Assembly (NCBI RefSeq): GCF_004217115.1
Contig: NZ_SHKN01000001.1
Coordinates: 871,781 to 935,780 of the forward strand
Direction: 5' to 3'
DNA from: Ancylomarina subtilis
Lineage (GTDB): Bacteria > Bacteroidota > Bacteroidia > Bacteroidales > Marinifilaceae
DNA: 64,000 nucleotides
Made by a program: the position numbers and the translations under genes. This document shows positions 5,472 to 32,767 of the stretch, piece after piece (position 1 is the stretch's first letter; every line of letters begins with the position of its first letter). The notes beneath the pieces were generated by a model. The model had not been told where the DNA came from. It was given only the letters and a program-made list of their open reading frames with translations, and ran no database searches.

Positions 5472-6191
5472 TTATTCATTTATATAATCATGAGACTGAA
5501 ACTTGCCATCACCTGTTTTTACAATTATTTTATCCAAACCCAAAGCAATAATTCGACCACTGCTTTTTACAGTATTATCATTTAAAGTTCTGGAGAAAAT
5601 ATACATATCACCCACCTTATAGCCTTTATAGTTTTTACTTTTGGTAAAGATTTTATCCGTAGATATTAATTTGGTTTTAGAATTTCCTTTAGGCGTTTTA
5701 ATCAGAACCCTAACCTTATCGATATCCTCAATTGAAAGAATAACAGCATCTTCGTTTCTGTCAATATAAACAGAATCGCCAATCTCAAATAGCTCATTCG
5801 CTAAACTCTTCTTTGATAGTCTCTCTTTATACTTATCCGTATATGGATCGGCTTTAGAATCGTCAGTAAAACTCACAACATCTGCACTAACAGTAGCTTT
5901 CGTTTTATTAAAGAATGGGAAAAATGAACGTTTAAAATCAACTGTGAAATTGGCGTAGGTTTCGTTTGGTTTTAAAGGTCTGTTATTAATTAATTCTCGC
6001 TTAGCTTCTAAAACTAAGGCATCTTTTGAAAGCCCTCCAATACACAAAACTTGTTTAGTCTGTGAAACACCATAGGCAATGTCTTCATACTTTACATTTC
6101 GATTTAAGGATGAAGAACTGATCGCACCTTGATGCACAGCACAGGAGCTTAATAGTAAAAGGACCGAAAGTGGAATTAATAACTTTTTCAT
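5472..6191 (-). CDS. Putative lipoprotein of unknown function, DUF6567-like
   Basis: The open frame extends upstream, but ATG at 6191 is the better start: it places MKKLLIPLSVLLLLSSC, a lipoprotein signal with lipobox LSSC, at the N-terminus, while the upstream extension has no matching feature. The mature protein of about 220 residues is soluble and beta-rich. It has a conserved-looking block VLCIGGLSKDALVLEAKREL early on and repeated strand patterns later (GDSVYI, GDMYIF). It resembles proteins annotated DUF6567 in Bacteroidota, from memory. No catalytic motif is seen. Likely anchored in the outer or inner membrane. Isolated transcription unit with its own terminator at 5397-5424. Confidence 0.7.
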   Translation of the reverse strand: MKKLLIPLSVLLLLSSCAVHQGAISSSSLNRNVKYEDIAYGVSQTKQVLCIGGLSKDALVLEAKRELINNRPLKPNETYANFTVDFKRSFFPFFNKTKATVSADVVSFTDDSKADPYTDKYKERLSKKSLANELFEIGDSVYIDRNEDAVILSIEDIDKVRVLIKTPKGNSKTKLISTDKIFTKSKNYKGYKVGDMYIFSRTLNDNTVKSSGRIIALGLDKIIVKTGDGKFQSHDYINE

Positions 6192-12388: not shown

Positions 12389-14434
12389 ATGCCTTTACAC
12401 TTTCAAAATCCTAGTATCCTGTGGGGACTCTTAAGCTTGATGATTCCTATTATCATTCATCTATTCAACTTTAAGCGCTTTAAAAAAATCTATTTCAGTA
12501 ATCTGAAATTCTTAAAAGACCTTACAGCCGAAAATAAAAACCGATCTAAAATTAAAAAATGGCTATTGCTTGCCAGTCGTTTGATGGCTCTAAGCTGCTT
12601 AATTATAGCCTTTGCTCAACCCTATATTCCCAACCAAAACACATCAGTAATAAGTAAAAATCAAAAGAGTTCAGTTTATATTTATGTAGATAATTCCTTC
12701 AGTATGAATGCTGAAACTGAAAAAGGGATTGCCATTGAAATTGCAAAATCTAAAGCCATAGAACTTATTAATTCTTTAGCCGAAGATGTTCAAATAAAAA
12801 TTCTTGATAATAACAACAAGGGAAAACTCCCTACACTAAGCAAGCAAGGAGCAATCTCAAAAATTCAGGCACTAAAACCATCGGCTGAAAGCAAGCTTTT
12901 CTCTCAAATTTTAAAAGAATGTCTACAAAATGATTCCAATGAGAATGATAAAATTTACCTATTCTCAGATTTTCAGAAATATCAGGCAGATTTCAACAAA
13001 ATGTTACCTGATAGCAATCTACATGTTAACTTAATGGCTTTATCAACTCAAAGCCGAAACAATCTCTATATTGACTCCTGCTGGTTTGAAAATTCAGCGC
13101 ATAAGATCAATCAAACAGAAGAACTCAAAATCAACATCCGCAACGCATCGAATGAAAGCTTTCGTAAAATCCCAATCAAACTCTATATTAATGACAGTTT
13201 AAAAACCATTTCGAATTTTGATATTGAGGCTCAGGAAAACAAAGAATTAGATTTACGCTACAAGAATAATCAGTCAGGTATTTATTCCGGTCGAATAGAA
13301 ATAAGCGATTACCCAATTACCTATGACAACACATTTTACTTTTCTTATATGATTCAGAAAAGTGCTGAAATCATCAGTATTAATCAGGAAAACGAAAATC
13401 GCTACATCAATCAGCTTTTCTCGAATAAGCAATATTTCATCCTCAAAAACATTAACAAATCACAATTTCATCAGGAAGATCTAAGTAAAACCAAATTGAT
13501 TATCTTAAATCAACTTACGGATATGCAAAGCGGTTTCAGACAAAAGATATCAAACTATATCCACAAAGGCGGCCAGGTGCTTGTCCTTCCGGCAAATGAA
13601 AATAATGATTCAAATAATGAACTCCTGACCGAATTGGGTGCCAGCCAGTTTACACAAATGGACAGTTTGAATAAAACAGTTTCGAGTATCGAGCTTGATG
13701 CAGAAATCTACAAAAAAGTATTTACTCAACTGAAAGAGGACGCGCGCCTGCCACAAATCTATCGTCATTTTAAATTGAGTGAGGCAAAAACCGGAATCAG
13801 TACCCCACTTTGGAAAACCAATACGGGAGAGAATCTATTCTCTCAAACACAATTGGGCCAAGGCAAACTCTATATCTCCAGTTTTAACTTCCATCCCCAA
13901 TGGACCAATGCGATCAAGCATCCGATATTTGTCCCCGGGTTAATCAATATCGCACTAAACAACCAAGTTCATTCGCCAATCTATTATAAACTGGACGAAA
14001 GCGAATACGCTATTGCAAATGGCTTAAAATTAAACCACGAAAAAGCCATGTTTCACATCGAAAATAAAACACTCGGCATTGACCTGATTCCGGAACAAAT
14101 TTCTCATTTTGACAGAGGATTACTTTTAAATACACATGGACAAATTAAAAAGGCAGGGAATTATTTCATCAGTCAATCCAAGCAAATTCTATCGGGAATT
14201 TCGTTTAACTACCCTCGCCAGGAATCAGATCTGACTTTTTATTCATCGGGTGAAATTCAAGATCTTCTGCAAAAACACAAGCTAAATTACAGCTTATTCG
14301 ATATTGAAACTATAGATATGAGAAGCTTGATTGAGGAGCAAAAAAACGGAAACACCTACTGGAAATTATTTCTTCTTCTGTCTTTCTTGTTTCTGATAAT
14401 TGAGGTCTTAATTCAAAAAATCAAATTCTTTTAA
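12389..14434 (+). CDS. BatA-like double-transmembrane protein with VWA-like region
   Basis: A 681-residue inner-membrane protein. It starts with the N-terminal double-TM module (TIGR02226/BatA type): FQNPSILWGLLSLMIPIIIH, a basic loop with the FKRFKKIYFSNLKFL signature, then a second helix near 57-77. A von Willebrand A-like region follows, with a metal-site-type DNSFSMN at about 106-112. The middle is a large, probably periplasmic domain, and a final TM helix near 655-672 sits before the C-terminus. Relatives occur in Bacteroidota Bat (aerotolerance) clusters, but no batB-E or MoxR genes are nearby. Its place just after a TonB receptor suggests co-expression; a shared function is inference. 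Confidence 0.85.
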   Translation: MPLHFQNPSILWGLLSLMIPIIIHLFNFKRFKKIYFSNLKFLKDLTAENKNRSKIKKWLLLASRLMALSCLIIAFAQPYIPNQNTSVISKNQKSSVYIYVDNSFSMNAETEKGIAIEIAKSKAIELINSLAEDVQIKILDNNNKGKLPTLSKQGAISKIQALKPSAESKLFSQILKECLQNDSNENDKIYLFSDFQKYQADFNKMLPDSNLHVNLMALSTQSRNNLYIDSCWFENSAHKINQTEELKINIRNASNESFRKIPIKLYINDSLKTISNFDIEAQENKELDLRYKNNQSGIYSGRIEISDYPITYDNTFYFSYMIQKSAEIISINQENENRYINQLFSNKQYFILKNINKSQFHQEDLSKTKLIILNQLTDMQSGFRQKISNYIHKGGQVLVLPANENNDSNNELLTELGASQFTQMDSLNKTVSSIELDAEIYKKVFTQLKEDARLPQIYRHFKLSEAKTGISTPLWKTNTGENLFSQTQLGQGKLYISSFNFHPQWTNAIKHPIFVPGLINIALNNQVHSPIYYKLDESEYAIANGLKLNHEKAMFHIENKTLGIDLIPEQISHFDRGLLLNTHGQIKKAGNYFISQSKQILSGISFNYPRQESDLTFYSSGEIQDLLQKHKLNYSLFDIETIDMRSLIEEQKNGNTYWKLFLLLSFLFLIIEVLIQKIKFF

Positions 14435-14474
14435 ACCGACTGTCTTTAATTTTCAAAAAAAGTATAGAGCACTA

Positions 14475-14511
14475 AAAAGGGGAAAAGTTCATATCAGACT
14501 TCTCCCCTTTT
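14475..14511 (-). terminator. Terminator between convergent genes 12389-14434 and 14530-14922
   Basis: Arms AAAAGGGGAAAAGT and ACTTCTCCCCTTTT pair almost fully. T runs flank both sides, so it can act in both directions. Confidence 0.8.
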
Positions 14512-14529
14512 CTGCTCTTTACTCCAAAC

Positions 14530-14922
14530 CTAGTGCTGGCAAACGTGATCTGAATCACCATGTCCGGCACAAGTCGTTCCCGAGTCCACAACATTCTCTT
14601 GCAAGTAGGCCTCGGCCAACTCACGCACATCACCCGAACAGCCACGGTAAACCTGAATACCAGCCTGAGAAATTTTGTTAACAGCTCCCTGTCCCATATT
14701 CCCGGCAAGCATCACCTTTACGCCCATTTCGGCAAGCTGATTCGCTACATTTGATTTACAACCACACCCCTGTGGAGACTCCATTAATTCGATGCTACCA
14801 ATCTTATTATCGGCAGTCAATTCAACAATCGAAAAATACTCGCAATGTCCAAAATGCGAATCAACCTGATTGTCTTTAGTTGGAATAGCTATTTTCATCT
14901 CTTTGTTATTTTTAGTTTTCAT
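14530..14922 (-). CDS. NifX/NafY-like Fe-Mo-cofactor-binding domain protein (IPR003731)
   Basis: A 130-residue protein with the dinitrogenase iron-molybdenum cofactor biosynthesis fold: KIAIPTKDNQVDSHFGHCEY at the start, a Cys-rich GCGCK in the middle, then an RNase H-like core (VKVMLAGNMGQGAVNKI). The tail carries extra His and Cys (TTCAGHGDSDHVCQH), a likely metal ligand set. Proteins of this family, outside nif clusters, bind Fe-S or Mo-type clusters and often sit next to ParA/Mrp ATPases and DUF134 regulators. Here it is downstream of a second NifX-like gene and a DUF134 gene on the same strand. An AAGGGG ribosome site precedes ATG 14922; the in-frame Met at residue 9 is a weaker alternative. 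No nif genes are present. Confidence 0.85.
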   Translation of the reverse strand: MKTKNNKEMKIAIPTKDNQVDSHFGHCEYFSIVELTADNKIGSIELMESPQGCGCKSNVANQLAEMGVKVMLAGNMGQGAVNKISQAGIQVYRGCSGDVRELAEAYLQENVVDSGTTCAGHGDSDHVCQH

Positions 14923-20430: not shown

Positions 20431-22338
20431 CTAATTAACTTCGCAAAACACATTCGGATTTATCAGTAATGCCGGGTCATAATCTACGTAAGGAAGTGTG
20501 AAATAAAAACAAGACCCCACGTTCTCAACAGATTCTACCCAAACTTTTCCTCCCATCGATTTCACAAAAGCACGTGTTATGGATAAACCCAGTCCCAATC
20601 CGCCATATTCTCGTATATCAGATTCCTGAACCTGTCTGAAATTTTCAAAAATAGTTTTAAACAGATCTTCTGAAATTCCTATTCCGGTATCTTTGACATA
20701 AAACTCAATCAAATCGCCCTTCTTATCATAGCCGATTTCAACACAACCATCGTCAGTAAATTTGATCGCATTATCGATAAGATTTCTGAATATTTTTTGA
20801 AGATATAATCGATCAGCACACACCTTTTTCACACTGATATTCTTAATCAATCTGATTTCCAAATTTTTCTGATCTGCTATTTTTTTATATTCCCTCTCCA
20901 TATCTGATAACAATCCATCAATATCAATCAGCTCCATTTTAATATCTGAATGCCCCGATTGCACCTTGGCAATATCGACTATCTCATTCACAACATTCAA
21001 CAACTGATTCGAGTTTTCAGAAATGATATCCAAATAACTAACTCGATCTTCCATACTAACATCGGGGGAGGCTAAAAATTCTGCAAAGCCAAGTATCCCA
21101 TTCATGGGGGTGCGGATCTCGTGTGAGATATTATTCAAAAATGCATTTTTAAGTTCATCAACCTTACTGGCATCCAATTGTGCCTGAATCAATTCATTTT
21201 TAAGCAGATTCTCTCTTTTTGCGTAGTATATGAAAAAAAACAACAGTCCAAAAACCAACAAACCAACCGATAAAATCAGATAGGCATACTTCCGACTCAT
21301 TTGAATAAAAGAGCTGGGTTTATTAATGACAATCCAGTCAGATGGAAAGGTTGAGGGAACAAGTTTTGCCTTCTTCAATTCCTTATAATCCAGATAACAT
21401 TGGTTTGGACTTTCCTCTAAAACCGGAATCTCTTCAATGGCTTTTCCTTTCAAAATTTGATCTGCAATCTTCAACGCTTCCTGAGTCTGTCTGTAATGAT
21501 GAATTAAAAAACCACCTACAATACCCTCATTCAGACCATGTTTCCATAAATGATAAATTGGCAAATCACTATTTTTCTTTAAAAAATCCAATCCTTCGTA
21601 AAAAGGCTTGTATTTAAAATCCTTATCCCTGTAAAGCGACAACAACAAAAGAGCCTTCTCCCCTTTTAGCTTTTTCAAATTCGTTTCAAACTCCGAAAAA
21701 CTAAGTTCAGCCAAATTAAGCTCATGAACATTAATTGCTGTATTGTAACCTTTTAGATTCAGAACCCTATTCAAATCGGTTTTCCCTGATTCACTATTGT
21801 CACTAATCACATACATTTCCTCGAGCTTGGGGTTTAACGTCTTTGCGAGATTTATCGTTTCCTTTATTGATATATCTTCAACCACCCCGGTACAATGGGC
21901 ATTTGCATTTTGTTTCCTGGCCAAGTCGATATTATTTATTCCCCAAAAAACAATGGGTTTGCCCTTAAACAGATCCTGCTCATATTTCAAAACATACTCC
22001 AAAGCATAATCATCTGCAACCAGAAATAAGTCATAGGGCTTCCTTTTGGACAATTTATAAGACAGAAAATCATGAAAATGCTGAACATATACATCGTCAA
22101 CAAATTCTTTGCTATTCATGAACTCCACATCAATATGATAATGGGTTGTATCTATAAATTCCTGAATTGCTTTCGCAGAATGAATATAAGTTGGAAAATT
22201 GCTATTGTAAGAGTCAATTAGGCAAATTCTTTGTCGTTTTGTTTCTCTTACTTTTTGTGAAAACAGATTAAAAGGTAAAAATAAAACGACAATCAGCAGA
22301 CAATAGTGCAAAGAACAGGCTCTATTCTTCACTCTCAT
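20431..22338 (-). CDS. Sensor histidine kinase with ABC-substrate-binding-type periplasmic domain
   Basis: The start is placed at the second Met (22338), giving a clean signal peptide; the annotated frame could begin eight codons earlier at 22362. Residue numbers here follow the longer frame (643 aa). A periplasmic domain (about 40-345) resembles the ABC_sub_bind family (RICLIDSYNSNFPTY, IVFWGINNID). A TM helix lies at 358-380. A short coiled linker leads to HisKA with phospho-acceptor H414 (NNISHEIRTPMNG), then HATPase_c with the N box (RNLIDNAIKF), G1 (DTGIGIS) and G2 (GGLGLGLSI). No receiver domain or adjacent response regulator is present, so the partner is unknown. The sensor probably binds a small solute. 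Confidence 0.9.
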   Translation of the reverse strand: MRVKNRACSLHYCLLIVVLFLPFNLFSQKVRETKRQRICLIDSYNSNFPTYIHSAKAIQEFIDTTHYHIDVEFMNSKEFVDDVYVQHFHDFLSYKLSKRKPYDLFLVADDYALEYVLKYEQDLFKGKPIVFWGINNIDLARKQNANAHCTGVVEDISIKETINLAKTLNPKLEEMYVISDNSESGKTDLNRVLNLKGYNTAINVHELNLAELSFSEFETNLKKLKGEKALLLLSLYRDKDFKYKPFYEGLDFLKKNSDLPIYHLWKHGLNEGIVGGFLIHHYRQTQEALKIADQILKGKAIEEIPVLEESPNQCYLDYKELKKAKLVPSTFPSDWIVINKPSSFIQMSRKYAYLILSVGLLVFGLLFFFIYYAKRENLLKNELIQAQLDASKVDELKNAFLNNISHEIRTPMNGILGFAEFLASPDVSMEDRVSYLDIISENSNQLLNVVNEIVDIAKVQSGHSDIKMELIDIDGLLSDMEREYKKIADQKNLEIRLIKNISVKKVCADRLYLQKIFRNLIDNAIKFTDDGCVEIGYDKKGDLIEFYVKDTGIGISEDLFKTIFENFRQVQESDIREYGGLGLGLSITRAFVKSMGGKVWVESVENVGSCFYFTLPYVDYDPALLINPNVFCEVN

Positions 22339-22698
22339 AATTAAGGCATTATCTAATAGCATTCGGGTATATTTTGATCATAGATTAGTTGTAATGAATG
22401 CCCAATTTACTAATAAAGATAGGGACTTCCAAATTTTGACAAAAATACAAATAACATACACTAACATTTTAATTTAACCCATCAAACACTCTTTTCATAT
22501 AGATTAATAGATACTTAAAGCTTAACATATCAATACAGTAATAATTAATCTTATATCGAATTTATTTATTAAATAATTCATCCTGTTAATGATCCAATCT
22601 TAATTAAATAATCCCAAAATAGAATCGGACATTTTTTTAAAACAAATGACAGAAAAACGAACAAGATGAATATCAGCTTAATAAGTAAGAAAAAAACT
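22339..22698. other. AT-rich intergenic region between divergent genes
   Basis: About 360 AT-rich bases holding the promoter zones of the histidine kinase (minus) and the phosphoesterase (plus). Nothing beyond the -7 box listed next could be recognised. Confidence 0.5.
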
Positions 22699-24104: not shown

Positions 24105-25289
24105 TTAAATAAAATTCAAATTCACATCCTTCAGGAACTTCTCCTCGAGCAAACGTACCACACGTTTGACTACAGTGCGGCGAATTTCCAACTCAACCGG
24201 CAGATTGGGATCCTGATGAGCCAGATTAATACGTGTTCCGTTGATGATAGAGATCTGATCACTTTGAAGCAGATAGTGTACAATCTGATCAGCGGGCCCT
24301 TCTCCCAATTGATAATTGGAATCATAATCCTCTAATATTCGAGCCACCTTACCAATGGTTAGAATCCCTTCAGTCACCAGATTAATGCCCTCCATATAAG
24401 CAATTGGAGGCAGTTCCGGATCGCTGATCGTCATACCCGGTGCAAATTTCAAGCCCAATTCTCTGGCAATAATTTCAGCTGTAGAACCACCACAAATGAT
24501 TTTCTTTCCTTTAAAATGATAGACTCTCATAGCCAATTCCGAATCCTTTTCCATCTCGAATGGAGGTCCTGTACACAATAACAATTTGCGAGGCTCTCTA
24601 AAATAGATCACGCCTGCACTGGTGTCGTCCTTGGGTTCATCCTGATCGTTGCGCGAGGCACGTTTCACAATCCTCTTCCCAAGTGCATTGGACGAAATAT
24701 AGGGTGAGGTTTTTATAACCTGTGTCACAAAATCAACAACATTATCGAGTCCCCAACCAAAAGGATAAGCCTGACTTCCCATACCCGACTGCATAATACC
24801 GTCAGACCAAAAAAGAATTCGATCCTCTTTTTTTGCATTAAACTGACAGGCTCTTAATACTTTTCCTTTGTTCTCTTCACTTTCAAGTTCAATATTCTCC
24901 CAGCCCGGATCGAAAAATTTGTCCCCCCGCATGATCACGCAATCGGGATTATCGAACTCCATAATTCGAGTCGTTCCATCGTATTCAATATCGACAATGG
25001 TAAACGTAGAATAGCTCACCTTTCTCACACTACACACAGGCAGCGTGTTCATAATAATCTCAGCAATGGTTTTAAAATCCTTATGCTCAATGGTAAAATT
25101 CATTGCCATAGATGCTGTCAGTGTAGCCAAAACATTGGCTTTCACACCGCTCCCCATGCCATCGCTAAGAATAACGATTGTGCGGTTTTCTTCCTTAATT
25201 CGTCGCGACAGAAAGACATCTCCACAAATCATGTCGCCATGATGAAACAATTGTGGGCAATCTATATCCAGGTGAAACTTCTCCTCCAT
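24105..25289 (-). CDS. SpoIIE-type PP2C serine phosphatase (second copy of the module)
   Basis: A 394-residue protein with an N-terminal PP2C/SpoIIE phosphatase domain (about 18-215). Metal-binding aspartates are D43 in LSDGMGSG, an Asp in ILFWSDGIMQSGMG near 178, and DD in PKDDTSAG near 222. The C-terminal 170 residues form a separate domain with KKIICGGSTAEIIARELG, shared with the SpoIIE gene at 27557, which has exactly the same length. Such phosphatases dephosphorylate anti-anti-sigma factors or other Ser/Thr targets. It is the last gene of the operon and follows a HydS-like gene by 49 bases. Gene context suggests that hydrogenase redox state is its input; the target is unknown. Confidence 0.9.
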   Translation of the reverse strand: MEEKFHLDIDCPQLFHHGDMICGDVFLSRRIKEENRTIVILSDGMGSGVKANVLATLTASMAMNFTIEHKDFKTIAEIIMNTLPVCSVRKVSYSTFTIVDIEYDGTTRIMEFDNPDCVIMRGDKFFDPGWENIELESEENKGKVLRACQFNAKKEDRILFWSDGIMQSGMGSQAYPFGWGLDNVVDFVTQVIKTSPYISSNALGKRIVKRASRNDQDEPKDDTSAGVIYFREPRKLLLCTGPPFEMEKDSELAMRVYHFKGKKIICGGSTAEIIARELGLKFAPGMTISDPELPPIAYMEGINLVTEGILTIGKVARILEDYDSNYQLGEGPADQIVHYLLQSDQISIINGTRINLAHQDPNLPVELEIRRTVVKRVVRLLEEKFLKDVNLNFI

Positions 25290-25337
25290 AGGGATTTATA
25301 GTGTTAGTTTGGGCATTACCTCATTTATCCATCACAT

Positions 25338-27176
25338 CTACTTATCGGTCGTGTGAGATTTGATGATAGAATTCAAAATTTTCTCTGTTTTAGATGCTGA
25401 TTCGCCCAACAAAAAGGCAATTTGCTGAACCGTTTGCAGGTTCTCCTTTATCACATCTTTAGCACGGCCAATCACTTCCTCTTTGCGAACTTCCGGAGCA
25501 TACAAATCGCGGACAATACCACCAACGACTTTATTCTTCTTAATGGTAAATACAGAGACATTAAATAAGCGACTACCAAAATGCACATCCTTTTTCAGAA
25601 TATCTTCACCATTCATTAGTACGGTTGAAAACAGGCGATGAAAAGGAATAACTTTGGATAAGTCAGCATCAACCAAACCCGGGATAATTTCGTTTAACAG
25701 CTTGGTTTCTTCTCCCAGGAGATTAACAAAACTGTTATTCGACTCAATAATTTTAAGATTCTCATCAACAATGACAACACCTGTGGGAAGCTTCTGAAGC
25801 ATAGCAGAAACCGTTTCGCTGGCTTCCATAGCTAATCGGTGTTCCTCTTTAGCTTTACTTTCCGATTCTTTAAGCGCAATCTTCGTTTGAGTCAGTTTTT
25901 CATTGGTTTCGCCTAATTTCTTGATATAGGCATTCATATTTTTAATGGTAACCGAAGAGCATTGCTCAAACTTGGCAAGCCCCTGAACCTTGGCTTCTGC
26001 AAATTTCCTGCAGGTTTCGTAACCACATGACCCACAGCCCAGCTGATCTTCAATTTTACTTTTCCCCATTTTATCGAGAACAGCCTGTACCTCTTCCTCT
26101 GTAGGAATAGGAAGTCTCATATCCTTCACCTTAAAATTTCGTGATAAATCGATATGCCTATAGGTATCTATTTCTTTTTGCCATTGCTTTTCATCAAAGG
26201 TGTTCAAGCGCTTACGCACATATTGAACAACCTGTGAGCGACGAGAAAATTTACGCCCCCCTTTTGATGTTCCAGGTCCCATAATACAACCATCACAATA
26301 AAAAAGATCGAGATGTTGATTCAGATTGCTACTGCTGTGAAATTCTTCCAGTGAGCGAAGAAAATTATTACGTCCCTCTGTGCTGATGATATTTCCCCGA
26401 AGCATGCTGTTATCAATTTCAGCAGCCTGAAACAAACCGTGGCTCACCGGGAAAAGCCCTCCAATACGAGCGAATGGTGGATCAAATTCTGAAAATTCAA
26501 CCTTCTTCTCCGTAATGCCACTTTCCTTAAAAAGTTTTCTTAATTCAATAAAACTGAGAACAGCTTGAATCTCCCCATCGCTTTTATTAAAATATTTCAC
26601 ATCATCCTTACTCGCGACACAAGGAGAAAGCGAGACAATTTTAACATCCTGTCCGTATTTCTCACGAACCACCTTAGCCATTGCAATTATTGGATTGACT
26701 ATAGGCGCCAAATTCTCAACCAAATCAGGGTAATAACGCTCCACATGATTCACTAAAACCGGACACTTGGTTGACAGGTAATACTTCCCGTGAAAATTAT
26801 TGAATAACTCTTTGTACTTAAAGGCAACCAAATCTGCCCCGAAAGCTGCTTCAACCACGTAATTAAAACCCAACTCCCTAATCATCCCCACAAAGTGACG
26901 GTAATCGCTTATATCATCGAACTCACCGGAAATGCTTGGATCACAAATAGCAACAACCTTCTCATCACGTTTGAGAAGATCCTTCACGTAATCTTCCTCA
27001 TTGCGATACACAATAGCCTCCTGAGCACAAATACTAACACAATTACCACAACCAATACAACGATTTGCAATAATATGGGCGTGATTATCTTCAATTTTAA
27101 TAGCCTTAGCAGGACAAACCCGAATACAGGTATAACTCAGGTTACATTTATCCTTATTTGTGGTAATCAGTTGCAT
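25338..27176 (-). CDS. HydS-like sensory [FeFe]-hydrogenase with degenerate H-cluster motifs
   Basis: A 612-residue protein. Order: two N-terminal [4Fe-4S] sites (Cys 11, 17 and 21; Cys 40, 43, 46 and 50), [FeFe]-hydrogenase large-subunit domain (about 70-320), PF04060-type Fe-S module (C381, C384, C389, C406), coiled coil (415-450), PAS domain (about 455-570) and an amphipathic tail. The active-site loops are altered. L1 is TKC138P, with Lys where catalytic enzymes have the proton-transfer Cys. L2 is PC186VASKDD, so the cyanide-contacting Lys position is Ser. L3 is C294DGC297, one residue shorter than CxxGC. I expect a poor or absent H-cluster, so this is probably a redox or PAS sensor. The neighbours support a signalling role. 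Confidence 0.88.
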   Translation of the reverse strand: MQLITTNKDKCNLSYTCIRVCPAKAIKIEDNHAHIIANRCIGCGNCVSICAQEAIVYRNEEDYVKDLLKRDEKVVAICDPSISGEFDDISDYRHFVGMIRELGFNYVVEAAFGADLVAFKYKELFNNFHGKYYLSTKCPVLVNHVERYYPDLVENLAPIVNPIIAMAKVVREKYGQDVKIVSLSPCVASKDDVKYFNKSDGEIQAVLSFIELRKLFKESGITEKKVEFSEFDPPFARIGGLFPVSHGLFQAAEIDNSMLRGNIISTEGRNNFLRSLEEFHSSSNLNQHLDLFYCDGCIMGPGTSKGGRKFSRRSQVVQYVRKRLNTFDEKQWQKEIDTYRHIDLSRNFKVKDMRLPIPTEEEVQAVLDKMGKSKIEDQLGCGSCGYETCRKFAEAKVQGLAKFEQCSSVTIKNMNAYIKKLGETNEKLTQTKIALKESESKAKEEHRLAMEASETVSAMLQKLPTGVVIVDENLKIIESNNSFVNLLGEETKLLNEIIPGLVDADLSKVIPFHRLFSTVLMNGEDILKKDVHFGSRLFNVSVFTIKKNKVVGGIVRDLYAPEVRKEEVIGRAKDVIKENLQTVQQIAFLLGESASKTEKILNSIIKSHTTDK

Positions 27177-27224
27177 GGGACAGCGAATTTAGGGTGTAAA
27201 AATACGGGGATCAAAAGTCAGAAC

Positions 27225-27476
27225 TTAGACTTCTTCAAACACCTTTTTCAGGATATCAATGGCTCCTTCGGCATCAACTTCCTTATAAACTTCGTCTTCG
27301 ATCTTTAAAATTGGACCAACAGAACAGTTTCCTGTACAAAGTTCTCCATGAAAAAAGACCAGATCGTTCAAATTATTCTTGTCGAAAAATTCTTTTACAG
27401 ACTGTAATGTCTTGCCATTACCTCTTGAGAAACAGGAACTCCCCAAACAAATGGTAACATCCTTTTTATCACTCAT
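27225..27476 (-). CDS. Thioredoxin-like [2Fe-2S] ferredoxin (HydC/NuoE-like)
   Basis: An 83-residue protein with the short thioredoxin-like [2Fe-2S] fold of the 24-kDa complex I subunit. The ligands are C10-x4-C15 and C47-x3-C51 (in CTGNCSVGP). It lacks the helical N-terminal domain of NuoE, which fits stand-alone electron carriers in clostridial hydrogenase clusters. It is the middle gene of the operon, 81 bases after one SpoIIE gene and 49 bases before the next HydS-like gene. It may pass electrons to or from either sensor hydrogenase. In clostridial HydS clusters, a protein of this kind is often present, from memory. Confidence 0.92.
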   Translation of the reverse strand: MSDKKDVTICLGSSCFSRGNGKTLQSVKEFFDKNNLNDLVFFHGELCTGNCSVGPILKIEDEVYKEVDAEGAIDILKKVFEEV

Positions 27477-27556
27477 GGTATTATTTGATTATGTTTTGTT
27501 TTTAATTTTGATTATCGAAAATTTAACGGATTTCATCGCCGCAAGCTTCCAACCAT

Positions 27557-28741
27557 TTAAATATAGCTAAGATCTACATCTTTCAAAAACTTTTCCTCCA
27601 AAAGCATCGCAATGTTTTTCACTACGGTTCGGCGAATTTCCAACTCGACAGGCAAATTGGGATCCTGATGAGCCACATTAATTTTTGTCCCGATAATGAT
27701 CTCGATTCGATCACTCTCAAGCAATAATTTCACAATCTGATCGGCTGGTCCCTGATGAAGAACCGTGTTCTGATTGTAAGCTTTTAATAATCGCTGAACT
27801 TTTCCCAAAGTCAGAATGCCTTCGGTTAGGAAATCCAAGCCTTTTAAATAGGAAACCGGAGGCAGCTCAGAGTCTGTTATATTTAAATCGATTTTCAACT
27901 CTTCACCAAACTCTCTGGACAAAATACTGGCCGTTGTCCCGCCACAAGCAATCTTCTTCCCTTTAAATTCACTCACCTGTTTGGCCAGTTGTGTATCTTT
28001 CGATTTGCTGTAAGGAGGTCCTGTGCAAAGCAACAAATCACGGGGTTCACGCAAATACACTACCGCACATGAGGTATCATCCTTTGGTACGGCACCATAA
28101 TTAGCCACAGCTCTGTCAACCACAGCACGTCCCAATTGCTTAGCTGACAAAAAGGGCTGACGCCTGATCATTCCCCTTACAAATTCATTTAAATTCTCCT
28201 GGCCCCATCCGAAAGGGAAACGCCTGCTCCCCATACCCGAATTGGTCACCCCATCCGAACAAAAAACAATCCGATCTTCTTTCTCTGCTTTGAAACGATA
28301 GGAAAACAAACTTTTACCGGAGTTGTTAGCCCCCTCTATACTCAATTCTTCACACTGAGGTTGAAAAACGTCCAGTCCTCTTAGAACCAGACATTCAGGA
28401 CTATCGTAGCGTATAATACGTGTTTCACCATCGCATTCAATATCAACAATGGTGAAGGTCGAATAGCTGGCTTTGCGTTTACTGCAGATAGGCAGGGTTT
28501 TCATGATCACCTCGGCTGCCTTTCGGATATCCTTATTCACCCGCATGTAATTCAAAACCATCGAAGCCGTCAAGGTCCCCAAAACATTGGCTTTAACACC
28601 ACTGCCCAAGCCATCGGAAAGAACCAGCAGGGTACGTCCCTCCTCTTTAATTTTCTCCGACATAAACACATCGCCGCAAATCACCTGTTTACCAGGATTC
28701 GTTTGCAAACACTCAACTTCTATATAATAATCAGAATGCAT
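27557..28741 (-). CDS. SpoIIE-type PP2C serine phosphatase (first copy of the module)
   Basis: A 394-residue paralogue of the phosphatase at 24105, with the same two-domain plan. The N-terminal PP2C domain has VLSDGLGSGVKANVLG (metal Asp) near 42, FCSDGVTNSGMGS near 178 and PKDDTSCA near 220; the C-terminal domain has KKIACGGTTASILSREFG. The ends are also alike (LEEKFLKDVDLSYI against LEEKFLKDVNLNFI), so the two arose by duplication of a gene pair. It starts 35 bases after the HydS gene and precedes the [2Fe-2S] protein by 81 bases. Its likely substrate is a phosphorylated STAS- or anti-sigma-type protein, but none is encoded in the window. Confidence 0.9.
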   Translation of the reverse strand: MHSDYYIEVECLQTNPGKQVICGDVFMSEKIKEEGRTLLVLSDGLGSGVKANVLGTLTASMVLNYMRVNKDIRKAAEVIMKTLPICSKRKASYSTFTIVDIECDGETRIIRYDSPECLVLRGLDVFQPQCEELSIEGANNSGKSLFSYRFKAEKEDRIVFCSDGVTNSGMGSRRFPFGWGQENLNEFVRGMIRRQPFLSAKQLGRAVVDRAVANYGAVPKDDTSCAVVYLREPRDLLLCTGPPYSKSKDTQLAKQVSEFKGKKIACGGTTASILSREFGEELKIDLNITDSELPPVSYLKGLDFLTEGILTLGKVQRLLKAYNQNTVLHQGPADQIVKLLLESDRIEIIIGTKINVAHQDPNLPVELEIRRTVVKNIAMLLEEKFLKDVDLSYI

Positions 28742-28775
28742 ATCTGTTTCGGGTTCTTAATTTTAATATTTCTGA

Positions 28776-30494
28776 TCAATTCTTATCTTCTGAAAGCGTA
28801 TAAAACTCCACAATAGAGTTAAGCATATCCTCTGTTTCGGATGCATTCTCACCCAACAGATAAGCAATTTTCTGAACCGTTTCCAGATTCTTTTGGTTGA
28901 CAGCCTTGGCCCGATTAATCACCTCCTCCTGTTGAATAAAAGGCTGAGACATATCACGAAGAATCGCCCCAACAATCTTATTTCGTTGAATGGTAAACAA
29001 ACTCAAATGCAACATTTTATTCCCCAATCGAAAATCCCTTTCTAAATTATCTTCCCCTGTGGCCAGAACCGATGAAAAGAGTTTGTAAAATGGTGCGATC
29101 TTCTTCAAATCAGCATCTTTCAAACCCGGAATTGTTTCAAACAATTGCTCCATCTCCTCGCCCATTATACGGGCAAAACTCTGATTAGCCTCAACCACCT
29201 TCAGATCCTCGTTTACAATTAAAACTCCGGAAGGTATTTTGCCCAAAAGTGCTGTTGATTTATCGTGAGCAATTTTGCGCATATAGGAAGCGCACATATT
29301 GGGTTCGGACTTATCTTCGAGGTAAGCCTTGGCAAATTCCCGACAGGAATTGTATCCACAACCACCACAATTAATCTCATCCTTATCGGAGTATTTACCA
29401 ATCATGTTCAGAGCCTCCTTGATCTTATTTTCAGGATGTTCTGGTTTCATAGCAACATCAATATTATCAAAATCTCTATCAATCGAAAAATTGACAACTT
29501 GTTCTTTAACTTCCGGTTCGGTCCGATTGATAATCTCCAATCGCTTTAATGCCCGGGAATATGATTTTCGGGTTCCCGGCCCATTGATACAGCCCCCTTC
29601 ACAAGCCAAAAGTTCCAGAAACAACAAGCCCGATTTGCGATAATAATTCAAATCCTTAAGCACATCGTAAATGCTGCTAATGCCCGAGAAAGTCATAAAA
29701 ACCGCATCGGTTGTCGAAGCATTATCCTTAATCCCGGCAATCATCCCCCCATCGATGGGATACAAAGCACCTCTTCCTGCCCGTCGGGGAACAAATTTCG
29801 ACTCTGCATCCGACTCGTGAAACAATTCAGGCTCGAGCCCCTCTTCATCAAGCCATTCAGCCAAATCTTTAAACGATAGGGAAGCTTCGAGCAAATCTCC
29901 AAAAGCATCGCTTTCTGATTTTTTGGCAATGCAAGGACCAATAAAAACAATTTTACAGTCCTCGCCATATTCTTGCTTTAACAGCTTGCAATGCGCTAAC
30001 AAGGGTGATAAAAAAGGCGTGATATAATTCTTATACTGAGGAAAGTGTTTACAAATCATCTCAACCACCGAAGGACAAGCTGAGGAAATATAAATACCGG
30101 ATTGTTTTTCTTCTAAAAACGCGTTCACTTTTTGCGAAACCATCTCAGCACCCAATGCTGTTTCTGAAACATGAGCGAAGCCTAATTCCTTAAGGGCAGC
30201 AAGCAATTGCTCATCCTTTAGATTAGGGAATTCTGACATATACGAAGGGGCTAAAGACACCACCACCTTATCATGACGCTTCAATAAGGATTTCACTCGT
30301 GTTAAATCGTTGCGAACTTTTTTCGCATTCACAGGACAAACCAGCGTACAACTGCCACAGTAAATACAATCTTCATGTAAAATTTGTGCCGAATTATTAA
30401 TCACTTTTATGGCTTTCAACTGGCACTCACGTATGCATTTATAACAATCCTGACAATCGTTTTGTTCGGTATAAACGGGCTTAAAAACATCCAT
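28776..30494 (-). CDS. HydS-type sensory [FeFe]-hydrogenase (group C-like)
   Basis: A 572-residue protein. Two classical [4Fe-4S] motifs (C14-x2-C17-x2-C20-x3-C24; C43-x2-C46-x2-C49-x3-C53) lead to an [FeFe]-hydrogenase domain (about 70-325), a PF04060-type Fe-S module (C376, C379, C384, C401) and a PAS domain (about 415-520). The H-cluster loops are well kept: L1 SSAC140P, L2 PC188IAKKSE (Cys, Lys191, Glu194), L3 C298EGGC302. Ala139 replaces the proton-transfer Cys of catalytic enzymes, as I recall for sensory HydS proteins. It heads a five-gene operon, 35 bases before a SpoIIE phosphatase. It probably senses H2 or redox state and signals through the phosphatase. Maturation genes hydEFG are not in the window. 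Confidence 0.93.
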   Translation of the reverse strand: MDVFKPVYTEQNDCQDCYKCIRECQLKAIKVINNSAQILHEDCIYCGSCTLVCPVNAKKVRNDLTRVKSLLKRHDKVVVSLAPSYMSEFPNLKDEQLLAALKELGFAHVSETALGAEMVSQKVNAFLEEKQSGIYISSACPSVVEMICKHFPQYKNYITPFLSPLLAHCKLLKQEYGEDCKIVFIGPCIAKKSESDAFGDLLEASLSFKDLAEWLDEEGLEPELFHESDAESKFVPRRAGRGALYPIDGGMIAGIKDNASTTDAVFMTFSGISSIYDVLKDLNYYRKSGLLFLELLACEGGCINGPGTRKSYSRALKRLEIINRTEPEVKEQVVNFSIDRDFDNIDVAMKPEHPENKIKEALNMIGKYSDKDEINCGGCGYNSCREFAKAYLEDKSEPNMCASYMRKIAHDKSTALLGKIPSGVLIVNEDLKVVEANQSFARIMGEEMEQLFETIPGLKDADLKKIAPFYKLFSSVLATGEDNLERDFRLGNKMLHLSLFTIQRNKIVGAILRDMSQPFIQQEEVINRAKAVNQKNLETVQKIAYLLGENASETEDMLNSIVEFYTLSEDKN

Positions 30495-30901
30495 TTTATG
30501 CAGATCTTACTTGTATTTAAATTTTAATCAAAGCTCTGAATTTATGTTTTTTATCGGAGCGATTTCAGGATATTCTAAAACACATACAAGTTATTCAGAT
30601 GGGATTTAAATAAGCTTCTGCAAGTCCAAATGACCGATCCCGTCAGTCCCTAATTCGACAAGAGGAGAACAATAAAGGATAAAAACGTCTTTTTAATCAA
30701 ATATCTTACATCTTTTTTGAAAAATATACTTAAATTAAGTACAGATCAAAGCTTAACATCATATCAAATATCAGAGATATAATTAAAAGCCATTGGAATG
30801 ACAATCTGAAAACTATTTTAACAGCACCTGCTCTCAGGTCTGTTATAAGCTGAATACACACTAGAGAATAAACTTATCTTACAAGCTAAACATAGTTATT
30901 G
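30495..30901. other. Divergent intergenic region between the HydS operon and the carbamoyltransferase gene
   Basis: About 400 bases that must hold both promoters. One perfect dyad, TACTTAA-A-TTAAGTA at 30727-30741, could be an operator, but it is AT-rich and may be chance. No small gene was found. Confidence 0.45.
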
Positions 30902-32767
30902 ATGAAAAAAATCCTCGGAATATCTGCGTTTTATCACGACTCAGCTGCTGCCATCACAATTGGGGGGCAGATTATTGCTGCCGCTCAGGAAGAACGATTT
31001 ACAAGAATCAAACACACGCCCGATTTCCCAATTCATGCAATTAAATATTGCCTGGAAGAGGCCGGACTTGAAATTGATGAGCTCGATGCTGTTGTTTTTT
31101 ACGATAAACCCCTGCTCAAGTTCGAAAGACTTTTACAAACCTATTATGCTTTTGCGCCCAAAGGTCTCCTGTCCTTTCTGAAGGCTATTCCTGTTTGGAT
31201 CAACGAGAAAATGTTTCTTAAAAAGCAAATCTACAACGGTTTGAAAGAGATCGGCCCATACAATAAGAAGTCATTGAAACTCTTGTTCTCAGAACATCAT
31301 CTGGCTCATGCTGCAAGTGCTTTTTTACCATCGGCCTATGAAAAATCGGCCATCTTAACCATTGATGGTGTAGGTGAATGGTGTACCGCTTCGATAGGAA
31401 TTGGGGAAAAAGGTCAGATTAAAATATTAAAGGAAATGGAATTCCCTCACTCAGTGGGGCTACTCTATAGTGCTTTTACCTACTACATTGGGTTTACGGT
31501 GAATTCCGGAGAATACAAACTTATGGGACTGGCGCCCTATGGCGATCCCCAGGCTGATGAAACCCACGAATTTGTAAAACGGATTAAAAAGCATTTAATC
31601 GATATAAAGGAAGATGGTTCCATTTGGCTGGATCAATCCTATTTCAACTATGCCACAGGTTTACGAATGGTAAAAGAAGACAAATGGGAAAAATTGTTTG
31701 GTTTAAAACGTCGCGAACCTGAAGCAAAACTCGAACAGAAACATTGCAACCTGGCCCTTGCCATACAAATGGTAACCGAAGAGATTGTGATCAAAATGGC
31801 CAAAGAAGCGAAGCGACTAACTGAGGCTAATTTTCTCTGCATGGCGGGTGGCGTTGCGCTCAACTGTGTGGCCAATGGCAAACTGCTTCGTGAAAATGTA
31901 TTTGATGACATTTACATACAACCCGCTGCGGGTGATGCCGGCGGTGCACTTGGCGCAGCCTTAGCTGTAAGCTCCATGTATTTTGGGGAAGAACGACTTT
32001 TCGATCCGAAAAAAGACCAAATGCGAGGGGCGTATTTGGGTCCTGAATTTTCTGAAAAAGAAGTGCAACTGATGAACCGAAAGGTCAAAAGTGTGCATCA
32101 CTATTACGACAACTTTGCTGAACTGACGGAGTTTGCCGCTCAGCAACTCACCCAGGGCAATGTGGTAGGCTGGTATCAGGGCAAAATGGAATTTGGTCCC
32201 AGAGCGCTTGGCAACCGAAGTATTTTAGGTGATGCCCGAAACCCGGAAATGCAGAAAAAACTCAATCTTAAAATCAAATATCGCGAGGGGTTCAGACCCT
32301 TTGCCCCCTCTGTTCTGGCAGAAAAATGCAACGATTATTTTGATCTGAAAACGGGTTCTCCCTACATGCTATTGGTTGCTCCCGTTAAGGAAGAGAGACG
32401 CAAAGAATTGCCGGAGAATTATTCACAGCTTCCCCTTTGGGATAAGCTCTATTTTACACGAAGCGATATTCAATCGATCACCCATCTGGATTTCTCGGCT
32501 CGTGTGCAAACCGTACACCGGGATACCAACCCCAAATATTGGGATCTGATTACCGAATTCGAAAGACAAACCGGATATGGCCTGGTCGTTAATACCAGTT
32601 TTAATGTCAGGGGCGAACCCATTGTTTGCACCCCATACGATGCCTACCGTTGCTTTATGAGCACCGAAATGGATTATCTGGTTATCGGCAATTTTGTGTA
32701 TTGTAAAACCGAACAACCCGATTGGGAAAACAAGGAAAAATGGACCGTTAAATTCAAGATGGACTAA
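30902..32767 (+). CDS. Carbamoyltransferase family protein (NodU/CmcH/SxtI-like)
   Basis: A 621-residue enzyme expected to carbamoylate an alcohol or amine from carbamoyl phosphate and ATP. The N-terminal Kae1/HSP70-like fold shows GISAFYHDSAAAI and EERFTRIKHT (carbamoyl-phosphate site His and Arg region), HHLAHAASAF with the HxxxH-type motif near 133-142, and a TIDGVGEW nucleotide loop. The C-terminal domain has GKMEFGPRALGNRSIL (about 430-445) and FRPFAPSVL. ATG 30902 is preferred over a TTG one codon upstream. It is followed by DUF5989 and SxtJ genes, a grouping also known from saxitoxin loci (sxtI-J). The acceptor substrate is unknown; no toxin pathway is implied. Confidence 0.93.
   Translation: MKKILGISAFYHDSAAAITIGGQIIAAAQEERFTRIKHTPDFPIHAIKYCLEEAGLEIDELDAVVFYDKPLLKFERLLQTYYAFAPKGLLSFLKAIPVWINEKMFLKKQIYNGLKEIGPYNKKSLKLLFSEHHLAHAASAFLPSAYEKSAILTIDGVGEWCTASIGIGEKGQIKILKEMEFPHSVGLLYSAFTYYIGFTVNSGEYKLMGLAPYGDPQADETHEFVKRIKKHLIDIKEDGSIWLDQSYFNYATGLRMVKEDKWEKLFGLKRREPEAKLEQKHCNLALAIQMVTEEIVIKMAKEAKRLTEANFLCMAGGVALNCVANGKLLRENVFDDIYIQPAAGDAGGALGAALAVSSMYFGEERLFDPKKDQMRGAYLGPEFSEKEVQLMNRKVKSVHHYYDNFAELTEFAAQQLTQGNVVGWYQGKMEFGPRALGNRSILGDARNPEMQKKLNLKIKYREGFRPFAPSVLAEKCNDYFDLKTGSPYMLLVAPVKEERRKELPENYSQLPLWDKLYFTRSDIQSITHLDFSARVQTVHRDTNPKYWDLITEFERQTGYGLVVNTSFNVRGEPIVCTPYDAYRCFMSTEMDYLVIGNFVYCKTEQPDWENKEKWTVKFKMD

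Follow-up and report, generated by a model that had tools for sequence, protein, structure and literature searches.

Two sensor–phosphatase modules, one with an altered H-cluster site, in a single operon of Ancylomarina subtilis and some members of its family

Sensory [FeFe]-hydrogenases are assumed to be H2 sensors, and how their signal is passed on is an open question in the field. Both points are raised by a 64,000-nucleotide stretch of the Ancylomarina subtilis genome (contig NZ_SHKN01000001.1, positions 871,781 to 935,780), hereafter the window, which at 24105–30494 carries a minus-strand run of five genes encoding two hydrogenase-like proteins of the HydS type, each followed by a SpoIIE-type phosphatase. 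In transcription order, the run comprises HydS-A (28776–30494, 572 residues), SpoIIE-A (27557–28741, 394 residues), a thioredoxin-like [2Fe-2S] protein (27225–27476, 83 residues; the sole copy seen in the tandem), HydS-B (25338–27176, 612 residues) and SpoIIE-B (24105–25289, 394 residues). Do both HydS proteins report H2? An initial annotation of this DNA had proposed a two-input signalling device; two modules are indeed present, but their inputs are probably not two H2 sensors, as the lineage of HydS-B lacks H-cluster residues that other HydS keep.

The five same-strand genes and their order, as initially annotated, were borne out by open reading frame (ORF) calls and Pfam matches, and domain matches supported HydS-type and SpoIIE modules standing in tandem; the intergenic gaps, given before as 35–81 bases, are 34, 80, 48 and 48 bases. 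HydS-A and HydS-B, which share 34% identity, both match Fe_hyd_lg_C (E 1.8e-44 and 1.6e-36, respectively), as well as Fer4-type and FeS (PF04060) domains, with PAS matches that lie under the Pfam cut-off (PAS_9 E 7.1e-5 for HydS-A; E 0.0017 for HydS-B). HydS-A shows the group C layout, consisting of two N-terminal [4Fe-4S] motifs, the H-domain, a C-terminal Cx2Cx4Cx16C motif and PAS, followed by a conserved C-terminal tail. HydS-B has the same domain layout without the H-cluster Cys/Lys set of that group. The phosphatases match the SpoIIE domain (E 1.3e-10 for SpoIIE-A and 1.6e-9 for SpoIIE-B), which spans residues 34–228 of SpoIIE-A and is followed by a conserved C-terminal part (~237–394). 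They are 56% identical end to end and, as already recorded, agree in length and in the ending LEEKFLKDV. The 83-residue protein matches 2Fe-2S_thioredx (E 2.3e-8).

The H-cluster site was compared across 123 HydS proteins using the HydA of the window genome as the reference, after near-copies (L062, L067, L086–L092, L113, L129, L134 and L164, where L and G numbers are our handles for loci and genomes) and fragments had been dropped. The set included 12 tandem A-type, 13 single A-type, three kinase-fused and four outgroup-like proteins, as well as 91 B-type proteins, divided into 13 tandem-like (12 from tandems and the solitary L064) and 78 single ones. The equivalent of CpI Lys358 was present in 31 of the 32 A-type, kinase-fused and outgroup-like proteins (the other has Arg) but in none of the 91 B-type, and the CxxxC motif in 32/32 versus 3/91, with an apparent CxxxC in L140 left out of the latter count as a false pattern match. 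Neither feature was found in any of the 13 tandem-like B rows. In the window, HydS-B has Ser at the Lys358 equivalent, a third motif that reads YCDGC (CxxC, not CxxxC) and, in the first N-terminal cluster, Ser instead of the second Cys; it still has Cys at the positions equivalent to C300 and C355 and twice in motif 3. The H-cluster Cys and Lys of HydS-A are kept, as in all 12 tandem A rows and also in the alignment to 8a6t. As a separate observation, the kinase-fused HydS of L166–L168 carry CCEGC, which keeps the CxxxC spacing and is one residue short relative to CxGGC.

Within the B-type, motif 3 has no Cys at all in seven of the 91 proteins, and all four H-cluster Cys are gone in four (L071, L108, L136 and L159), in which HydS and SpoIIE still occur together. 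In the rooted HydS tree, L136 and L159 are sisters while L071 is placed elsewhere (L108 lies outside that tree); complete loss thus probably occurred on at least two occasions. The remaining Fe-S motifs are largely retained, the second N-terminal one in 91/91 and the C-terminal one in 90/91 B-type proteins. The ratio of nonsynonymous to synonymous substitution rates (dN/dS) of the H-domain was 0.025 for HydS-B and 0.034 for HydS-A, with four of ten pairs finite for each and dS near saturation; the H-domain of HydS-B is therefore unlike that of a decaying pseudogene. None of the solved-structure matches listed carried a group C HydS in its chain name.

Conservation of the operon was assessed by searching 58 relatives with SpoIIE-B, namely five of the genus, 29 other members of the family and 24 from other families of the order. 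A match was found in 31, and the five-gene tandem was read in 14, comprising 5/5 of the genus (the window genome included) and 9/29 of the rest of the family, with none in the 24 genomes of other families. Conserved linkage in relatives had been set as a check, and the gene order was identical in all 14 tandem genomes read, which belong to one family; as 13 of these are genomes other than that of the window, the arrangement is more than chance. A scan of species genomes gave 80 named loci, the best 80 of at least 574 relatives, in which distant relatives are under-sampled. Eight of them hold the tandem (Ancylomarina, Marinifilum and Labilibaculum) and 72 a single SpoIIE; the nearest named relative among the matches listed is Ancylomarina salipaludis (SpoIIE-B, 97%). 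SpoIIE directly follows HydS for 82 of the 88 SpoIIE genes of these loci. Elsewhere, a HydS-type SpoIIE gene without an adjoining HydS was observed at 6033–7226 of L180. This SpoIIE is carried by 90 of 247 genomes drawn from across the order, and by listed coordinates two copies lie within a few kb only in the window genome and in G118, a member of another family with an independent tandem of two A-type modules (L176, G118:C11), in which a single [2Fe-2S] gene was seen. In G015, the B module and an A module of the single type are on different contigs. The SpoIIE of G031 (L084), masked by a longer overlapping ORF, is counted in no tally.

Ancestry was analysed with a HydS tree of 66 rows and a second one of 82 rows, computed by a quick method with Bacillota rows as the outgroup. 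This outgroup is impure, as L182, from a Bacteroidales genome, falls inside the Bacillota rows, and three Bacillota HydS are in the sample; the near-copies listed above and fragments were partly excluded from the trees. In the 66-row tree, tandem HydS-A groups with single A-type proteins (support 100/99) and tandem HydS-B with the B-type of Marinilabiliaceae (100/100). The rooted quick tree has two main branches, one A-type (93, not starred) and the other uniting B-type and kinase-fused proteins (100), and a HydS clade restricted to the tandem was rejected by the approximately unbiased test (p-AU 5.4e-45). Since A and B group with separate single-module lineages and the tandem clade is rejected, HydS was not recently duplicated: HydS-A and HydS-B are old paralogues from two old lineages that were brought or kept together. 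The duplicated gene pair of the initial annotation thus fails for HydS, and the SpoIIE trees do not decide. In the latter, tandem B is placed, starred, with Marinilabiliaceae B and tandem A near the base, and a tandem-only SpoIIE clade costs 15 log units without being rejected (p-AU 0.167 with 61 rows and 0.185 with 83 rows).

By mean identity, tandem A is closer to single A than to tandem B in the N-terminal part and the H-domain, but in PAS, tail and SpoIIE tandem B is the closer of the two. PAS is 51% and the tail 58% identical between tandem A and tandem B, and PAS of tandem A is 42% identical to that of single A. A mosaic tandem A, with A-type input and B-type output, is hinted at by these values and is not claimed here, as trees fail to decide: with PAS, tail and SpoIIE combined, neither grouping of the mosaic test was rejected (p-AU 0.717 and 0.712).

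The small [2Fe-2S] gene of the tandem lies before HydS-B. In tblastn searches of the upstream stretch, it was found before HydS-B in 12/12 tandem-like and 73/76 single B-type loci (two single loci had too little sequence for the count; the window, counted separately, has the same pattern), and before HydS-A in 0/11 tandem and 10/13 single A-type loci. A shared electron carrier, as initially suggested, fits these counts, because the A module of the tandem has no adjoining carrier gene of its own and one gene serves two modules.

On the output side, PAS and the following tail are conserved in both HydS-A and HydS-B. In L172 (5967–6893) and L183 (5549–6475), from another family, SpoIIE comes after a 308-residue PAS-PAS protein that has neither an Fe-S part nor an H-domain and whose end is homologous to PAS and tail of HydS (domains confirmed for L172 only), so that it resembles a HydS in which a further PAS stands for the entire hydrogenase part; the L172 genome has three hydrogenase-domain matches, none of them directly before SpoIIE. 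As these loci keep the PAS-tail beside SpoIIE without the hydrogenase part, the PAS-tail would be the contact to the phosphatase, and the front part an exchangeable input. Within the phosphatases, the acidic residues D24, D43, D221 and D222, which we take to be the metal-site residues of SpoIIE/PP2C, are invariant in 59 sequences. The C-terminal part (237–394, ~160 residues) is strongly conserved, with the motifs TEGILTL and AHQDP-LPVELEIRR; it had no Pfam match in the scan of the full protein and gave a weak profile match to phosphoheptose isomerase (3trj, E 0.031). A natural series thus exists in which H-cluster residues are kept, partly lost or fully lost, or the hydrogenase domain is absent, all with the same PAS tail and kind of phosphatase; this series suggests that signalling centres on the PAS tail and SpoIIE, and two of its states sit in one operon, which makes the question testable.

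The surroundings of single modules were also inspected. Those of the B-type ([2Fe-2S], HydS-B, SpoIIE-B) have a HydA- or HydB-like gene in the fetched stretch in 55 of the 72 single named loci, several of the remaining 17 being short contigs. At three loci read further (L166–L168), the divergent operon goes on, next to HydABC-type genes, with a histidine-kinase-fused HydS, a response-regulator/kinase protein and a Rex-like protein, with domains confirmed for L166 only. In L093–L096 and L105, from Marinilabiliaceae and kin, SpoIIE directly precedes a DRTGG-like gene and then a HATPase_c_2-like (RsbW-like) gene, in the same gene run as a 452-aa-type protein, a second DRTGG-like gene, PHP, a second ATPase and HydB/HydA. 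The DRTGG-like and HATPase_c_2-like labels derive from BLAST to the copies of the window genome, whose own DRTGG matches fall under the Pfam cut-off. Single A-type loci hold a group-B-like hydrogenase gene in the stretch in 13 of 15 cases (L065, L078–L083, L085, L176, L181 at ~2.4 kb, L182, L184 and L185), the label in L078 being confirmed against NCBIfam; none was found in the fetched stretches of L070 and L077, and no group B hydrogenase gene adjoins the tandem operon of the window.

The window genome itself encodes four SpoIIE proteins and two stand-alone HATPase_c_2 proteins of ~135 residues, one of them in a hydrogenase operon (L019, where the RsbW-like protein is at 14216–14629); kinase and phosphatase are separate here. 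A third HATPase_c_2 match above the cut-off lies in a 274-residue frame. Six proteins match Fe_hyd_lg_C, namely both HydS, two HydA in HydABC-type operons (both above the NCBIfam group A cut-offs), one group B hydrogenase (C2:182308, above the FeFe_hydrog_B1 cut-off) and one 452-residue protein without PAS, which is group-D-like by layout only. HydG and HydF, two of the maturases whose look-up had been proposed, are in the genome. Independence from the H-cluster could not be read from maturase-free genomes: nine of the 90 SpoIIE genomes lack a HydG match, three of these have HydF and all nine carry hydrogenase-domain genes, so that the test was not clean. Separately, the order-level genomes G036 and G102 (98–99% complete) have hydrogenase-domain matches of E 5e-94 and 7e-97, yet no HydG or HydF match.

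Upstream of the operon, a 17-base box, ATGTGTTTTAGAATATC, lies at 30569–30585 on the minus strand, 74 bases before the HydS-A start codon. It precedes HydS-A throughout the genus in one or two copies (compared in L054–L057; L054 and L056 have two, spaced 22 bases apart), and an altered form with three mismatches is found in L060, L066, L067 and L068, four loci of other tandem genera; the box is a possible operator. A regulon was considered and discarded, as the genome has one exact site and four with two mismatches, and the reversed-pattern control has one. Sigma-70-like and terminator-like sites showed no excess over shuffled sequence. Nearby, a carbamoyltransferase gene (30899–32767) is divergent from the operon, as in L055 and L056, and 20431–22362 encodes a sensor kinase (ABC_sub_bind, HisKA, HATPase_c), part of which resembles an ABC substrate-binding protein.

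From this body of sequence evidence we infer a scheme of ligands, signals, direction of control, phosphatase substrate and [2Fe-2S] protein role, to which we assign a probability of about 0.48. In it, two old sensor–phosphatase modules joined in one operon would act on a common outcome. HydS-A, a sensory group C-type [FeFe]-hydrogenase, would most likely report H2. HydS-B would most likely use the Fe-S clusters left to it to report how reduced the electron pool is (reduced ferredoxin, or the [2Fe-2S] protein encoded directly before it, which may be the carrier shared by both sensors). In either protein the change would be relayed to PAS and the conserved tail, and these would make contact with the SpoIIE-type Ser/Thr phosphatase of the following gene and switch it. 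Both phosphatases would probably reverse the work of the RsbW-like kinase encoded in the distant hydrogenase operon, and H2 level and electron supply would thereby together determine hydrogenase or fermentation output. The substrate is a guess, either a DRTGG-like protein or some other protein on which that kinase acts, as no STAS match lies beside the SpoIIE and kinase genes. Somewhat more tentative is the wider proposal that a broad Bacteroidales lineage of "sensory hydrogenases" lost H2 chemistry and became H-cluster-free redox sensors acting via SpoIIE, with the Marinifilaceae pair as a comparator of H2 and electron supply with a shared carrier; surveys that count B-type HydS as H2 sensors may then be wrong.

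Several observations weigh against this scheme. Four Cys remain at the H-cluster site in 72/91 B-type proteins, the window HydS-B included, and this site could hold a cubane or even an altered H-cluster. The first N-terminal cluster motif, complete in 32/32 A-type, kinase-fused and outgroup-like proteins, is so in only 44/91 B-type (45/91, all 13 tandem-like included, have Ser for the second Cys), and the Fe-S relay is therefore altered too. According to parts of PMC13104023, H2 does not reduce the C-terminal cluster of the group D enzyme, a finding that speaks against a relay of the simplest kind. By hand count, HydG is present in 81/90 SpoIIE genomes versus 74/157 others. In the window genome, no STAS gene adjoins the modules or the kinase operon, the three STAS matches genome-wide lying elsewhere, and a long distance separates the tandem from the kinase operon (L019).

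The retained C300 and C355 equivalents and the two Cys of motif 3, together with the frequency of HydG, would also suit two H2 sensors of differing affinity or redox set point, as the initial annotation implies, in which the motif changes of HydS-B merely tune the H-cluster; passages in PMC10055695 report that Thermotoga maritima HydS functions with altered second-sphere residues. We consider this rather unlikely, as Lys358 is absent from 91/91 and CxxxC from 88/91 B-type proteins whereas the others keep them (31/32 and 32/32), as sensory enzymes conserve cluster-ligating Cys and [2Fe]-holding residues according to the same passages, and as four relatives without any of the four Cys keep HydS and SpoIIE together. 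HydG is required by catalytic hydrogenases as well. A partnership of HydS-B with HydS-A, as a heterodimer, electron relay or scaffold with one common output, would explain the single [2Fe-2S] protein, the order fixed in 14 genomes and the alike PAS and tail; it is improbable because most sampled B-type modules occur singly, each with a SpoIIE to itself (one SpoIIE in 72 of the 80 named loci), and because in G015 the two kinds of module are on different contigs.

A tandem duplication within the family, with HydS-B changing fast thereafter, is more doubtful still: SpoIIE-A is closer to SpoIIE-B (56%) than to most single A-type SpoIIE (45–51%), and the tandem-only SpoIIE clade stands unrejected, but that of HydS is rejected, and B-type HydS with SpoIIE occurs also in Marinilabiliaceae and many other families. 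Least probable of all is that one or both HydS are ordinary catalytic hydrogenases with an incidental SpoIIE linkage. Although HydS-A keeps the ligand residues and HydG and HydF are encoded, nearly all SpoIIE genes of the named loci (82/88) are positioned directly after HydS, PAS is present, the HydS-B motifs are lost, and the genome encodes two group A hydrogenases and a group B one besides. Sensing of H2 by HydS-A and of electron supply by HydS-B thus remains our preferred reading.

HydS in Marinifilaceae is already on record: passages of PMC9765461 state that nearly all members of two subgroups carry hydABC, hydS and hydM (groups A3, B and C1), and those on Marinifilaceae hydS mention neither a tandem nor lost residues. 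Literature searches yielded no description that we recognised of such a tandem or of HydS without the H-cluster; a phosphatase-linked HydS lineage without H-cluster residues, here paired with a relative that keeps them, was unexpected. HydDB group C3 is entered as "phosphatase-linked (putative)" with its role undetermined and H2 sensing suggested, according to part of PMC5037454. The window operon shares the adjacency of HydS to a Ser/Thr phosphatase gene with this group and departs from the suggestion in that its B-type HydS lacks H-cluster residues. The HydS of T. maritima (group C) and Thermoanaerobacter mathranii (group D) share the N-terminal clusters, H-domain and Cx2Cx4Cx16C, with PAS in group C (parts of PMC10055695, PMC8163306 and PMC13104023); both studied proteins hold an H-cluster, and the word "phosphatase" never appears in these three texts.

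The closest known system is hfsABCD of Thermoanaerobacterium, in which, as described in passages of PMC5707799, PMC11837493, PMC12288451 and PMC8924675, HfsB is an [FeFe]-hydrogenase with PAS, HfsC is homologous to serine phosphatases and HfsD is a group B hydrogenase, HfsA having no good match to any known protein. Deletion of hfsA/hfsB and of hfsC/hfsD shifted fermentation in different directions (passages of PMC5707799 and PMC11837493). Single A-type Bacteroidales modules resemble hfsBCD as described in parts of PMC11837493 and PMC8924675, with HydS, phosphatase and group B hydrogenase in 13/15 loci. The window operon differs in having two modules, an intervening [2Fe-2S] gene and an altered H-cluster site in the second module, and its HydS and phosphatase genes do not lie beside a group B hydrogenase. 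Plasmid pRUMAL01 of Ruminococcus albus 7 (L187) encodes two 2Fe-2S proteins, HydS, SpoIIE and a group B hydrogenase, with Rex and AdhE upstream; it is similar to the A-type modules and differs from the window operon in having one module with PCxxK and CxxxC kept. Finally, the SpoIIE/PP2C domain with its acidic residues and the HATPase_c_2 kinase in a hydrogenase operon recall partner switching by SpoIIE and RsbU/RsbX, except that DRTGG-like proteins take the place of a STAS gene nearby in the window genome and that the phosphatases bear an extra conserved C-terminal part.

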